A DNA stretch of 64,000 nucleotides from Candidatus Saganbacteria bacterium (GCA_016223245.1 JACRPL010000011.1:1-64000), one strand, 5' to 3'. Counted from the first letter of the stretch, positions 13,741 to 27,673 are shown. Numbers and translations are program-made. Notes: generated by a model from the sequence alone, not told the origin.

Positions 13741-14649
13741 ATGTTATCCTTTGAAATTAATATTAGCCGCATTAAAATCCCTGGCCATGGGCGCTTGGCG
13801 TCTGTTCCGAATGCAAGGGAAGCGGCTAGATTTTTGGGCCAGTTTCGAAGTCAAACAAGGATTGACCTATCATCGACCGCAGAAAACCCAAGCTTTCCAT
13901 TTCAACGGCTGGCCGATAAATTGCGCGATGTCGGGGTGGCTGGATTGGCCGTTAATCCCATCGAATACAGCGACAAATCTAAATCTGAAGAATGGATAGT
14001 TTCCATATTAAAAACAATTGTACGCCGACCTCACGAAGTTGCTGCCAATTTAGATGAATTTCATATTTCGCCGTTATTTTCTTATGTTGTTGACCCGGGG
14101 GATTTGCCCGCTGTCCATCAAGCTATTCGTCAGAGAAGATTAGGATTTCTGGAGATAGATGATGTATGGAAGCTGGCAAGCCCCTTTTTATTGCCTACCG
14201 AATTGGTTAAGATCGCAACCATCTGCAAGGGGCGCGGGATTGGAAAAGCCATAGGGCATCCCTTATTTCCATCCGAGGTCGCGCCCCGCTTAATTGTTGA
14301 TTATATTGTTCGCCGTATGCGGACACCTGACCTATGGTTCACGGCAGACAAGATCGAACACCACATCGAACAAATCGGCGATGGTGATTTTTTTCGCTGC
14401 GAGACTTCTTCAATACTTGCTCTTTCAGTGTTATTGCGCGGCGGCTGGTATTATCTATATTTTACCGAGGAAGGTTCGCCAGAAGTCAGGTGGTGCGACG
14501 TAATCCGCAATATCCGCGGCGGTTTACTGGCAAAACCGATCGTAGCTAGGGAACAAATTCTTACCCTGCTCGAGGTTGAGAAGCCGCAATTAACTTGGCT
14601 TTTACGCAGGACAATGGAAGATGATTTTGAAAAAGAAATAACCTCGTGA
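13741..14649 (+). CDS. Hypothetical 302-residue protein
   Basis: I do not recognise this family. The sequence is soluble and mixed alpha/beta with no signal peptide. It includes FPFQRLADKLRDVGVAGLAV and a C-terminal section with SSILALSVLLRGGWYYLYF. It lies in a plus-strand island between leuD and leuC, which are both on the minus strand, suggesting insertion into a former leuCD pair. A GGAG lies about 14 bases upstream of ATG. Confidence 0.6.
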   Translation: MLSFEINISRIKIPGHGRLASVPNAREAARFLGQFRSQTRIDLSSTAENPSFPFQRLADKLRDVGVAGLAVNPIEYSDKSKSEEWIVSILKTIVRRPHEVAANLDEFHISPLFSYVVDPGDLPAVHQAIRQRRLGFLEIDDVWKLASPFLLPTELVKIATICKGRGIGKAIGHPLFPSEVAPRLIVDYIVRRMRTPDLWFTADKIEHHIEQIGDGDFFRCETSSILALSVLLRGGWYYLYFTEEGSPEVRWCDVIRNIRGGLLAKPIVAREQILTLLEVEKPQLTWLLRRTMEDDFEKEITS

Positions 14650-22088: not shown

Positions 22089-22756
22089 CTATTTATTAAG
22101 AGGATATTCGAGAACTGTCCGGAACGCAAGGCTTTCTGGGTCTTGCCAATCCCCATTATCCATTACAAGATCTAAACGGATGCCTGCTCCGTTCTCGCTA
22201 TGGAATTGATACGCAGGTTCAACCCTTCTTTGCCTTTCATCTCTTGCACCCCAATAAGATGCTATCGTGAGAAGACGTGCTCCTTCAAATTCAAATCTTA
22301 CGCCTAATGCGTCGGTTACAAGCCGTCTGCCGGTCGATTCGGCTACGAATCTAACAGTTCTAGATGCGGGATCCTGGGTGAAAATCAGTTTAGTCCCAAG
22401 CATTTTTTCCACATATGCTCTAAGGCCCATTGGCGGGGTAAATGTTAAAAGATTTCTTACAGCAGGATGGGCAACAGCTTCAAGTCCAACTGTATGAGCA
22501 TGCAATTGGCCGAGGCTTCTTTCTCTTCCTCCGATAACCGCTTTGAATCCTCCGAATGTGGGATCAACAGTAACCATTGGACAGAGCCAAGTATAGTTAA
22601 GCCCGGGTTTTGAGTTTTTAATCTGACGTTATATAGATTTGCAAGTTCTCTTGGGTCGTATCCGCGCCCGGCCCTTATTTCGAAAGTTGCCCTTGTCCCG
22701 CCTTTTGTTGCAACTTCGTATCTATTAATTATGCGAGGAGCAAATGAGGCCGTCAT
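22089..22756 (-). pseudogene. Unknown protein gene split by a one-base frameshift
   Basis: Two overlapping frames look like one gene. The first (22756 to about 22604) encodes MTASFAPRIINRYEVATKGG up to LKTQNPG. The second (to 22089) continues NYTWLCPMVTVDPTFGGFKA. They join if one G is restored in CCCGGG at 22602-22607, giving about 222 residues. Past that point the first frame reads as a shifted version of the second, ending in low-quality sequence. It may be a true break, an assembly error or recoding. No family recognised; no signal peptide. Confidence 0.55.
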
Positions 22757-23713: not shown

Positions 23714-23784
23714 GAGACTAGTTAGGAACCTGCGAGTGAACCCTGCCTGCCGGTAGGCACGGCTCGCGGTTCCTAACCAGTCTC
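23714..23784. repeat. Palindromic repeat downstream of plsC
   Basis: GAGACTAGTTAGGAACC (23714-23730) pairs with GGTTCCTAACCAGTCTC (23768-23784) with one mismatch, around an inner CCTGCCGG motif. It may end plsC transcription. A second copy of the element is at 33179-33257. Confidence 0.75.
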
Positions 23785-23866: not shown

Positions 23867-26800
23867 ATGGTTACTACGAGCGGACCGCAAAGAGTTTTAA
23901 GCGCAATGCCTGCCTCACTGCATTCGCAAAGCAGGGCAAAAACTGCTTCTCAAGCACAGCCATATACTATGCCGCCGATCCCAATACCCGAACAAACCAG
24001 AGCAAGCATCATACGGTATGCAAAGAATCTCTTTAACTGGAGGAAAAATCACGAGGATGGTACTCCTATTGCGCGTATTATTGGAAGATTTGGGAATGTA
24101 GACGATAAAAACTTAGCCTTTGGATATATTTCATCAGTACTGTTCTCCTCTGGAGTGTTCAACTCGGCGACAGACCATTATCAGACGAGGCTTTCTGTCC
24201 TTAGAACGCTTGCCGATGTTGGCGGAAGAGAAGCGCATGAAGCGGCATTAAGCTTCGCAAATAATAAGGATTCACAAGGGAGAATGTTTGGAGAAAAAGC
24301 TATTGCGGGCGCAGAACTTCTAAGGATGGGAGACATAAGGGGATTAGACATCCTTCGCGAGCTTTTTGAAAAACGATCAAACTTCGACAATGCCAGATTT
24401 CTTATAGAAGAACTGGGAAGGACTCGCGATGAAAGAGTTGTAGACTTGATCATTAAGTTGGACGACCTCACGCTTGGTGTTTTACCTTACGATATAATCG
24501 ACAGCCTTGGAAAAATCGGCGGGACAAAAGCACTAAAACATATAGAAGCATCCCTGCCCCGGAAGCAATACGGATTATCAATAGATGATATGTCGGCGCT
24601 TTGCCATAGCGATGAAGTAAGAAGAATCATGGACAGTTATCTAATTTCTATGGGTTCAAGCTTAAGAGTGTGCGCGCCCCATTCATTCTTAGAATGCAAA
24701 GAGCAAAAATTAAAAGAAATGATAGAAGTGCATGTGAAATCCGGGGACCTGGATACTTTGGACTATTGGGAGCATCAAGAGACTCAACATAAACAATTTA
24801 TTATTATGCTAAATCAATTCTTAAATAATTATCCCACTAGAACAAACTTAAATGAACCGCCTTTTGTCCCATCTCTAGATCCGATAAGAGAAAAAGCAGG
24901 GCTTATAAGGGCTGTATGCAGAGAAAAATACCATCAAGGTGCATTGGAAAACAAGTGCGGGGACGGGAACCGCGGGAGCAGGTGCGGGAAAAAATCCACA
25001 AATGCGGGATGGGACATTGTCGACTTGCGAACAGTCCAAATGTCGCAAGCAAATTCAAGGGCGATTGACTGGGGGGCAACAGCGCGGCTTCCCGAAGTTT
25101 CGGGCGAAGGGATGGTTGTCGAACGCCTCTATAGGGTGCAAGGGCGCAACAAAGTTATGATCGTTGTGGATCCGAGGTCGGTTGAAGGAGCTGACAGGAA
25201 AGAAAAAGCAAGTTTAATAGCCGGAACAATAAGCCAAATGGCTTTTCAAAGAGGGGACTCTGTCGGGTTAGTCATAGGCAAGAAAAAAGTATACATCGGC
25301 CCATCCCATGAGGCCATGCAGATTGAACGAATTTTACGGGCGATCGACTCGTATCATGAGGATGGGCAAACAGATGGATTAGTATCGATATTAGACCAAG
25401 ACCTTGTCCGCAAAAATATGCCAAAAGGATCTGAAATATTTGTCTTGACTTCGTTTAGCGAAGCAAGCCAAGAAGGGTTGACCAAACTTTGCAGGACATT
25501 TAGGAACTTTGGGGTCGAACTTATCCCAGTTTTCACGGCAGCAGAACTTGTCGTCCCTCACCCGACCGTAAAAATTGGAAGATTCAAATTTAGAGCAAGA
25601 GATAATATCGCAAGATTGATAGCGAACAGCATGGCGCTCTTGCAACAAGACCAGATGAAAACCATTCTATTAAAAACTGCGGGGGTCGTGATCGACGCGG
25701 AAGGGAAAGAGGGGGCGGATATGATTGTCCATGTGATTGCCGCCATGCAAGAAGACAGGAGAAAAAAGAGGGAAATTAAAATTGCAGGCAGGGTTGCTGG
25801 GGAAAAGGAAATAGACATTACAACCCCTGCTCCGCAAGAAGTATTGGATAAACTAAGATCAAGCACTTTTACTGCAAAATGGGAAAGCTTTGTATGTTAT
25901 AAACAGGCTTTGTGCAATGGATGGGAAGAAATATTGGTAATTTTTGACTCTGTTGTTGCAGAATCTATTGCACTTGCAAACAGATCGAAAAACTGGGAAC
26001 TGGCTGAAGAATTAATGGAAATAAAATACTATATGCAGAATGGCGACATGAGAGGTCGATTCTCATCAATTAAAATGCTTGAGCTGATCAAGGATGATGA
26101 AAATGCCGAAGGTTATATTGATGAATTTAGCAAGTATAGGATTTTGCATGATGAAATAGGAAGTAGAATCAAAGAGTTGCGAGATGCCGAACAATATTCT
26201 GCCGTAGTCACGCATTTATGTAAAAACGGACTATCTCTTTCAATCACAAGAAGACTTTATGCAATCGTACAAAAGCTAGAAGCCGAAAAAGCCCAAGAAA
26301 AAAAACACCTTGCAGGGAAACTGGATTCTTCTTTAAAAAGAATGGTCGCTCGCGTCCCTAGTATGCCTAATTTGGCAAACGAACGAATATTATCTCCAAT
26401 CTCTGCTTTTGATGAAGACAGATCAGATGACGATGAAAGAGTATGGATGACCCTATCTCCCGCGCCATCCGGCAGGAGCCGATATTATAGGAGCGGACTT
26501 GCTGTTGCGTATGATCCTGGCCACGCATCTTATAAAGCGGTCGAAAGCTTATCGATCGATCAACTTGTTGAAACAGGAGAGATGGAAATTAAAGGAAAAT
26601 TGGCGAACAAACTTAGAAAAGAGGATTTCATTCCAATCCCTGCAGGCGGATCAGTCGTAAAAGCAAATAAGAAAGAAATTTCTTTTTTCGTAAACGGAGA
26701 CAAACTTCCTGCCGGAGCTTCAAAAGTTTTATCAATGAAACTCTCGGAATTCAGAAAGCAAATAACGCAATTATACGGCAAAGAGCTTGGCGCAAAACTA

Positions 26801-27673
26801 ACATCGGCGCCAACGGCCGAACAATTAGAAAATATCGCTCCAGAAATTGCGGAAGAATGGAAAAAAGTCGTTGCGGAAACCCAAAGCATGAAGGTTGCGC
26901 AGGCGATCAAGCATATTCAAGGATACGTACTAAGTCACAAAAGAATAAAATACCATCGAGCGGAAACGAAGGTCGAAAAGATCTTGTTTGCGGAATTGAA
27001 AAGGAAAGCGGAAGCGGGAGAATGCGAAGCATGCGATAACCTAAAACTTATTATCCAGCTTGGGGGCGGGGTCTGCGCTGAAATGTCTGTTTTTGCGCTA
27101 AATTTAATGCGTATGGCAGGAATACCGACAGCTCTTTCCCATGGTTGGATAGCATCGGGAAGCAGAGTTAAAATAATGCCGCATAGATGGCCAGAAGCTA
27201 TTGTCGCATTAGGCGATGGAAAAATGTGCGGAATTCCTGTTGAAGCATCACGAATCGGCGCAACGCTTGCTATCCCTTCTTTTGCAGAAATGATCGGGGG
27301 AGCAAGAGAAGAGATAGGGAAAAAGGAATTGGCCATGCCGGAATTGGATAAGAAATGGCGGGAAGGAACGCTTGAACAAAGGATTCTGATCGCAAGAGCT
27401 ATCGACCTATTAAGAGCGATCGTCGAATTTTCAGAGGATAAACTTTGGACGAGAGAGAACGCCGCAGATTATTTTATAAGAGAACTTCGAAGAGAAATAG
27501 GATTTCCCATATCTGATTTCGCATTATTGCATATTGATGCCGAGCTTTTGCCGACAGAAAGGCTAAGAAAGTTGGATGGCGATTATTACAGAAAACTTGA
27601 GGCCTCCGATCCGGTAAGGGCGAAAGAGCTTCTTTCAGCGTGGTACCAGGCCGTAATAAGAGAAATCCCGTAA
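23867..27673 (+). CDS. HEAT-DUF58-transglutaminase fusion protein
   Basis: This 1268-residue soluble protein appears to combine three modules. Residues about 85-260 are HEAT-like helices (LADVGGREAHEAALSF, LEELGRTRDERVVDLI). Residues about 397-560 match DUF58: AIDWGATARLPE, then a von Willebrand-like strand VMIVVDPRS with a degenerate metal site, then GDSVGLVI. Residues about 1025-1130 form a transglutaminase core with GGVCAEM (C1070), HRWPEA (H1106) and LGDGK (D1117), ideal triad spacing. DUF58 and transglutaminase genes usually sit side by side with a MoxR ATPase and have membrane anchors; here they are fused, with no anchor, signal peptide or MoxR gene. A (TA) tract lies just before ATG. 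Confidence 0.8.
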   Translation: MVTTSGPQRVLSAMPASLHSQSRAKTASQAQPYTMPPIPIPEQTRASIIRYAKNLFNWRKNHEDGTPIARIIGRFGNVDDKNLAFGYISSVLFSSGVFNSATDHYQTRLSVLRTLADVGGREAHEAALSFANNKDSQGRMFGEKAIAGAELLRMGDIRGLDILRELFEKRSNFDNARFLIEELGRTRDERVVDLIIKLDDLTLGVLPYDIIDSLGKIGGTKALKHIEASLPRKQYGLSIDDMSALCHSDEVRRIMDSYLISMGSSLRVCAPHSFLECKEQKLKEMIEVHVKSGDLDTLDYWEHQETQHKQFIIMLNQFLNNYPTRTNLNEPPFVPSLDPIREKAGLIRAVCREKYHQGALENKCGDGNRGSRCGKKSTNAGWDIVDLRTVQMSQANSRAIDWGATARLPEVSGEGMVVERLYRVQGRNKVMIVVDPRSVEGADRKEKASLIAGTISQMAFQRGDSVGLVIGKKKVYIGPSHEAMQIERILRAIDSYHEDGQTDGLVSILDQDLVRKNMPKGSEIFVLTSFSEASQEGLTKLCRTFRNFGVELIPVFTAAELVVPHPTVKIGRFKFRARDNIARLIANSMALLQQDQMKTILLKTAGVVIDAEGKEGADMIVHVIAAMQEDRRKKREIKIAGRVAGEKEIDITTPAPQEVLDKLRSSTFTAKWESFVCYKQALCNGWEEILVIFDSVVAESIALANRSKNWELAEELMEIKYYMQNGDMRGRFSSIKMLELIKDDENAEGYIDEFSKYRILHDEIGSRIKELRDAEQYSAVVTHLCKNGLSLSITRRLYAIVQKLEAEKAQEKKHLAGKLDSSLKRMVARVPSMPNLANERILSPISAFDEDRSDDDERVWMTLSPAPSGRSRYYRSGLAVAYDPGHASYKAVESLSIDQLVETGEMEIKGKLANKLRKEDFIPIPAGGSVVKANKKEISFFVNGDKLPAGASKVLSMKLSEFRKQITQLYGKELGAKLTSAPTAEQLENIAPEIAEEWKKVVAETQSMKVAQAIKHIQGYVLSHKRIKYHRAETKVEKILFAELKRKAEAGECEACDNLKLIIQLGGGVCAEMSVFALNLMRMAGIPTALSHGWIASGSRVKIMPHRWPEAIVALGDGKMCGIPVEASRIGATLAIPSFAEMIGGAREEIGKKELAMPELDKKWREGTLEQRILIARAIDLLRAIVEFSEDKLWTRENAADYFIRELRREIGFPISDFALLHIDAELLPTERLRKLDGDYYRKLEASDPVRAKELLSAWYQAVIREIP

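Follow-up and report, generated by a model that had tools for sequence, protein, structure and literature searches.

DUF58 proteins are widespread beside MoxR ATPases and transglutaminases. Pseudomonas aeruginosa encodes PA2875, which we take to be a MoxR, and PA2874, presumably a DUF58 protein. Together with PA2873 (TgpA), these genes form one co-transcribed three-gene unit, and TgpA carries a periplasmic transglutaminase domain, has activity in vitro and is critical for viability (PMC3507681). In bifidobacteria, MoxR, DUF58 and transglutaminase genes stand side by side in the PFNA cluster; DUF58 accompanies MoxR both there and in the mycobacterial moxR operon, and its function is stated to be unidentified (PMC12067865). 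Published MoxR-vWA conflict systems combine repeats, vWA domains and, occasionally, transglutaminase-like peptidase domains (PMC7159879).

The locus described here encodes a DUF58 domain and a transglutaminase-like domain in one protein, a fusion for which no description was found in the open-access literature searched. It lies in a stretch of 64,000 nucleotides from Candidatus Saganbacteria bacterium (JACRPL010000011.1:1-64000), analysed at its full length and referred to below as the window; the host belongs to the Saganbacteria (WOR-1) group and is a groundwater bacterium about which little is known. The 1268-codon reading frame is intact, and its parts follow one another in the order N-terminal tail, repeat region, DUF58, helical linker, transglutaminase-like domain and C-terminal region:

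23867..27673, plus strand: complete fusion gene, 1268 aa (intact reading frame; relatives align over most of its length at 20-29% identity)
23867..23992, plus strand: Pro/Ser/Ala/Thr/Gln-rich tail, residues 1-42 (composition, alignment)
24347..24562, plus strand: weak HEAT_2 match, residues 161-232, within the variable N-terminal module (Pfam E=0.0018, below cut-off)
24959..25666, plus strand: DUF58 (vWA-like) domain, residues about 365-600 (Pfam, structure model, Foldseek, profile-profile comparison)
25724..26401, plus strand: mostly helical, poorly conserved linker, residues about 620-845 (alignment, structure model, hydrophobicity)
26894..27286, plus strand: transglutaminase-like core, residues about 1010-1140 (Pfam, alignment, profile-profile comparison)

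The preliminary description of this gene had placed both domains in a single chain, and this is borne out by the intact frame and by profile-profile comparisons for each domain; judged from its sequences, the fusion is genuine and conserved. Among 95 genomes searched, 6 further ones of the window's class carry the same fusion, bringing the total to 7 of the 31 genomes of that class; one of the 6 (G018) has three copies. The complete relatives measure 1211-1468 aa and keep the same domain order. A first scan of genome contigs using only the window protein as query yielded no relatives, and the alignment of the 7 long members is too divergent for a pattern scan. The G018 contig is identical to the Candidatus Saganbacteria record JACRKQ010000037.1, and the relative-bearing contig of G002, a genome of the same taxonomic family as the window, is identical to MEUB01000053.1 of candidate division WOR-1 bacterium RIFOXYB2_FULL_37_13. 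In the third G018 copy (L017:1-3018), the frame runs to the contig end, and the transglutaminase domain would lie beyond the sequenced part. In addition to a canonical MoxR-DUF58 operon, a genome from another class of the phylum (G053) holds two long DUF58 proteins at other sites, L086:5856-10109 and L087:1-2696, which contig ends truncate at 1418+ and 898+ aa, respectively; L086 has a transglutaminase-like motif between hydrophobic segments and represents a distant version of the fusion.

Taken as a single sequence, the window protein falls below the Pfam gathering scores for DUF58, Transglut_core and HEAT_2, and a PDB sequence search with it as query returned a chance match only. Its DUF58 match (PF01882; residues 397-530) has E=1.3e-4 and 21.7 bits for the whole protein; in the genome scan, the same stretch reaches 25.4 bits and passes the cut-off of 23.4. 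Relatives score well over the cut-off (L015, E=1.8e-12; L020, E=4.6e-14), and a profile-profile comparison of the fusion family with stand-alone DUF58s of related genomes gave a probability of 99.2 and E=1.7e-19. Crossed controls stayed at probabilities below 1%. In the structure model of the domain (mean pLDDT 66, core about 75-90), strands and helices succeed one another in a vWA-like order; the top Foldseek matches to this model are vWA domains (E 7e-6 to 2e-5), those of Bacteroides BatB and of an aerotolerance-related membrane protein among them. The DUF58 core that had been recognised from short motifs is therefore present. Two of its stretches are of particular use for comparison:

25058..25090, plus strand: DUF58 signature RAIDWGATARL, residues 398-408 (alignment with fusions and stand-alone DUF58s)
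25163..25180, plus strand: VVDPRS, residues 433-438, a degenerate sequence (D-P-R-S-V) at the site of the MIDAS DxSxS motif (alignment)

The DxSxS motif occurs in all 15 readable stand-alone DUF58s versus none of the 9 fusions that cover the region. Since this motif is not part of the Pfam definition of DUF58, its loss marks the fusions as a divergent DUF58 subgroup. The genomic setting differs as well. Stand-alone DUF58 genes (about 290-300 aa) were found in 30 genomes of the same phylum, and in 29 of these the contig also carries a strong MoxR match no more than about 1-2 kb away (counted by eye; in the remaining genome, the DUF58 gene stands at the contig start). MoxR over the cut-off is present in 0 of the 7 fusion genomes of the window's class, a strong contrast, although its Fisher P value (7.8e-7) overstates it because the genomes are related. 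Within the class, the fusion and the canonical operon occur in 7 and 6 of 31 genomes, respectively, with an overlap of 0 that is not significant (P=0.18). The window's own genome (G000) is listed as 100% complete, and the fusion is both its only DUF58 and its only transglutaminase in the genome scan. No MoxR had been noticed near the gene; the whole-genome scan extends this, with no MoxR ATPase over the cut-off anywhere in that genome. One AAA_3 match was considered as a MoxR and rejected, as it is below the cut-off and its N-terminus reads as RarA/MgsA, a resemblance that we take from the start of the protein.

With MoxR missing from the whole genome, the fusion module must work in another way, and the absence may leave room for another AAA+ partner in trans. 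We infer that the fusions lost MIDAS function and MoxR together, and this joint loss suggests a mutual dependence of the two. A DUF58 joined to an enzyme without MoxR represents a natural simplification, suggesting a direct action of DUF58 on the transglutaminase or on its substrate.

The enzymatic half is similarly faint in the window protein alone. Its Transglut_core match (PF01841; residues 1062-1113, E=1.4e-3) is below the gathering score, and the stretch exceeds the cut-off in the genome scan only together with neighbouring stretches (25.2 bits). The domain that had been proposed here is upheld by the relatives (L015, E=3.1e-9; L020, E=7.3e-8; L022, E=3.7e-12) and by profile-profile comparison of the fusion family with stand-alone transglutaminases of related genomes (probability 98.8, E=5.8e-16). 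A PDB search with the transglutaminase profile gave 8 matches, all 8 to transglutaminases or transglutaminase-like proteins, none of them significant singly (best E=0.046). Three residues stand out:

27074..27076, plus strand: C1070, predicted nucleophile, where a predicted helix begins (invariant; aligned with the stand-alone catalytic Cys)
27182..27184, plus strand: H1106, predicted catalytic His (invariant; profile alignment with stand-alone transglutaminases)
27242..27244, plus strand: E1126, predicted third catalytic residue, replacing the usual Asp (invariant in 8 of 8; aligned with the Asp of 'PVDTS')

All three are unchanged in the 8 members that cover the domain. The triad first put forward was C1070/H1106/D1117, and its Cys and His were placed correctly; D1117 was discarded as a catalytic residue, as its position is variable (G, T, G, M, D, E and Y in relatives) and E1126 is invariant instead. 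The fusion 'PVEAS' aligns on the stand-alone 'PVDTS', which puts E1126 at the position of the catalytic Asp; L086, the distant relative from another class, retains Asp there. Where the transglutaminase-like superfamily is defined by a Cys-His-Asp triad, the window protein thus presents Cys-His-Glu. By these alignments, the Cys-His-Glu set is a feature of the fusion family, and it may well form a working catalytic centre. Cysteine proteases with such a triad are known elsewhere, the adenovirus protease being one.

The structure model of this part (mean pLDDT 47.5) is too poor to serve as evidence of the fold, and Foldseek gave no significant match to it; at this low confidence, a helix starts beside C1070 and the order of secondary structure fits Cys-helix, strands, His and acid. 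The low profile scores of the window protein, the poor model and the replacement of Asp by Glu could be read as signs of a non-catalytic scaffold with a degenerate transglutaminase fold. We regard this as very improbable: few positions stay invariant in this very divergent domain, Cys, His and Glu among them, which is hard to explain without catalysis, and a Glu in the third position has its precedent in the adenovirus enzyme. Since the three residues are invariant despite 20-29% overall identity, an active transglutaminase-like enzyme is probably under selection.

Set against the described systems, the fusion shares with the TgpA unit a transglutaminase-like core with Cys and His and, through that unit, an association with DUF58 and MoxR. 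TgpA, however, is a separately encoded six-helix membrane protein, whereas the fusion holds DUF58 in the same chain, has Glu for Asp and lacks MoxR, and the window protein lacks a membrane segment; of the MoxR-DUF58-TgpA module, neither MoxR nor a membrane-embedded transglutaminase is found in it. DUF58 and transglutaminase are also neighbouring partners in the bifidobacterial PFNA cluster, but as two of five separate genes (pkb2, fn3, a MoxR-type aaa-atp, duf58 and tgm), a kinase and MoxR among them. The Bat-like MoxR and DUF58 operons of the same phylum are linked to the fusion by DUF58 homology in profile-profile comparison and differ in their shorter DUF58 of about 290-300 aa with DxSxS, in the adjacent MoxR and in having no joined transglutaminase. 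The MoxR-vWA ternary conflict systems likewise combine a vWA-like domain with repeats and, rarely, a transglutaminase-like peptidase (PMC7159879), but comprise three separate core proteins including MoxR; at the fusion locus, MoxR, vWA and a third core protein do not occur together, and neighbours are not conserved.

We lean towards interpreting the fusion as a single-chain, MoxR-independent derivative of the MoxR-DUF58-TgpA module, in which a Cys-His-Glu thiol enzyme would be offered its substrate. DUF58 and the variable N-terminal region, whether repeats or a propeller, would together bind a partner protein and hold it against the transglutaminase-like domain of the same chain. Cys1070, aided by His1106 and Glu1126, would then attack a glutamine side chain or a peptide bond to form a thioester, to be resolved by an amine (crosslink) or by water (deamidation or cleavage). 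We envision that such a module, having neither the MIDAS motif nor an ATPase, would be controlled through the binding of a partner, not through ATP-driven remodelling. Both domains, the conserved Cys-His-Glu, the lost metal motif, the absence of MoxR and two predicted topologies are read from sequence; to these we add, by inference, the presentation of substrate by repeats and DUF58, the thioester chemistry and the cytosolic location. The earlier suggestion of target recruitment by DUF58, for crosslinking or cleavage, is consistent with these data, which fit both reactions alike. As a single chain, the fusion lends itself to purification and testing.

The same gene had been described as encoding a soluble protein of a distinct intracellular system. 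For the window protein itself, this agrees with a hydrophobicity scan of the whole protein, which found no segment of membrane-spanning quality, and with the lack of a signal peptide. As a trait of the family, solubility does not hold. L018 and L019, from the two genomes that belong to the window's own taxonomic family, each have two strong hydrophobic segments flanking the transglutaminase domain; L086 has one before the domain and a second, read from the translation, after it. All three have a probable membrane-spanning segment at the end of the linker, where the window protein has none, and the long relatives L015, L016, L020 and L021 lack the flanking pair. By predicted topology, the family therefore has soluble and membrane-spanning forms. 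The fusion-family tree gives strong support to three pairs only, and loss versus gain of the segments is not settled by it. What stands of the proposed distinct system is the single chain, the absence of MoxR and a recurrent family with features of its own; its intracellular character does not extend to the family.

Positive charges around the segments of L018, L019 and L086 lie on the sides expected to be cytosolic and suggest that the N-terminus is inside and the enzyme outside the membrane, a membrane-flanked arrangement shared with TgpA (PMC3507681). It is on this ground that one might view the fusion as an envelope-assembly enzyme like TgpA, descended from a membrane-anchored ancestor with an outside catalytic domain, the window protein reaching the envelope or surface by an unrecognised route. 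We consider this unlikely, given that the window protein has neither signal peptide nor membrane segment, that four long relatives lack the flanking pair, and that the DUF58 part would be on the cytosolic side even in the anchored forms. Under the single-chain, partner-regulated reading that we prefer, all steps would take place in the cytosol for the window protein, and the catalytic domain would be outside the membrane in its anchored relatives.

The N-terminal module is the variable part of the fusion family. Its tail (residues 1-42) is probably disordered, and similar tails in other members precede a conserved 'LPxxxRxxxL' stretch. The HEAT-like helices initially noted here are visible only as the HEAT_2 match below cut-off listed above and as a comparable one in L019 (1.2e-4, also below cut-off), and in L021, Pfam places a WD40 propeller at the N-terminus instead; in the other members, the module has no assignment. 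Divergence is rapid: the window genome's RadA is 71-72% identical to that of two family relatives (60-66% to others), and the fusion is only 21-23% identical overall to the same two. The protein changes fast; its Cys, His and Glu do not.

A conflict protein, for defence or self-killing, might look much like this, its fast-changing N-terminal region sensing an invader and its thiol enzyme acting as effector. The patchy occurrence within the class, the three copies in one genome, the exchange of HEAT for WD40, the divergence relative to RadA and the domain vocabulary of the MoxR-vWA systems (PMC7159879) all accord with it. We nevertheless hold this reading to be doubtful. PADLOC gave no match for the fusion, no relatives were found in phage records or viral contigs, and MoxR is lacking. 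Nor do the loci offer recognised defence neighbours or any neighbour gene in common, and the fusion therefore appears to act alone. The membrane-anchored relatives are, moreover, unlike a purely intracellular sensor, and rapid divergence also fits weak constraint. A broader version, tentative at best, would see a Saganbacteria sensor-effector family with exchangeable N-terminal modules (HEAT-like, WD40 and other repeats), a DUF58 without its metal motif and a MoxR-free Cys-His-Glu transglutaminase or protease, in cytosolic and membrane-spanning forms, used against invaders or neighbours.

At the window locus, the upstream neighbour is an acyltransferase gene (Pfam), and the downstream radA-like gene is convergent with the fusion gene. 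The upstream intergenic region contains one further element:

23715..23783, plus strand: strong hairpin, T-rich after it, between the acyltransferase gene and the fusion gene (MFE -49.8 kcal/mol, z=-6.0)

This hairpin likely separates the acyltransferase and fusion transcription units. Upstream of the acyltransferase gene, 22089-22577 on the minus strand encodes a 162-aa protein with no Pfam or NCBIfam match, and 13741-14649 encodes a 302-aa protein with no Pfam match. At one other fusion locus, that of L021 in G004, a putative Ser/Thr protein kinase gene (L021:7525-8457) lies two genes downstream of the fusion and recalls the kinase Pkb2 of the bifidobacterial PFNA cluster; it was seen at this locus only. 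The core of the window's hairpin is the palindrome TGCCTGCCGGTAGGCA (23744-23759), which is found 13 times across the two strands of the genome, versus 0 for the reversed control, and looks like a dispersed repeat family.
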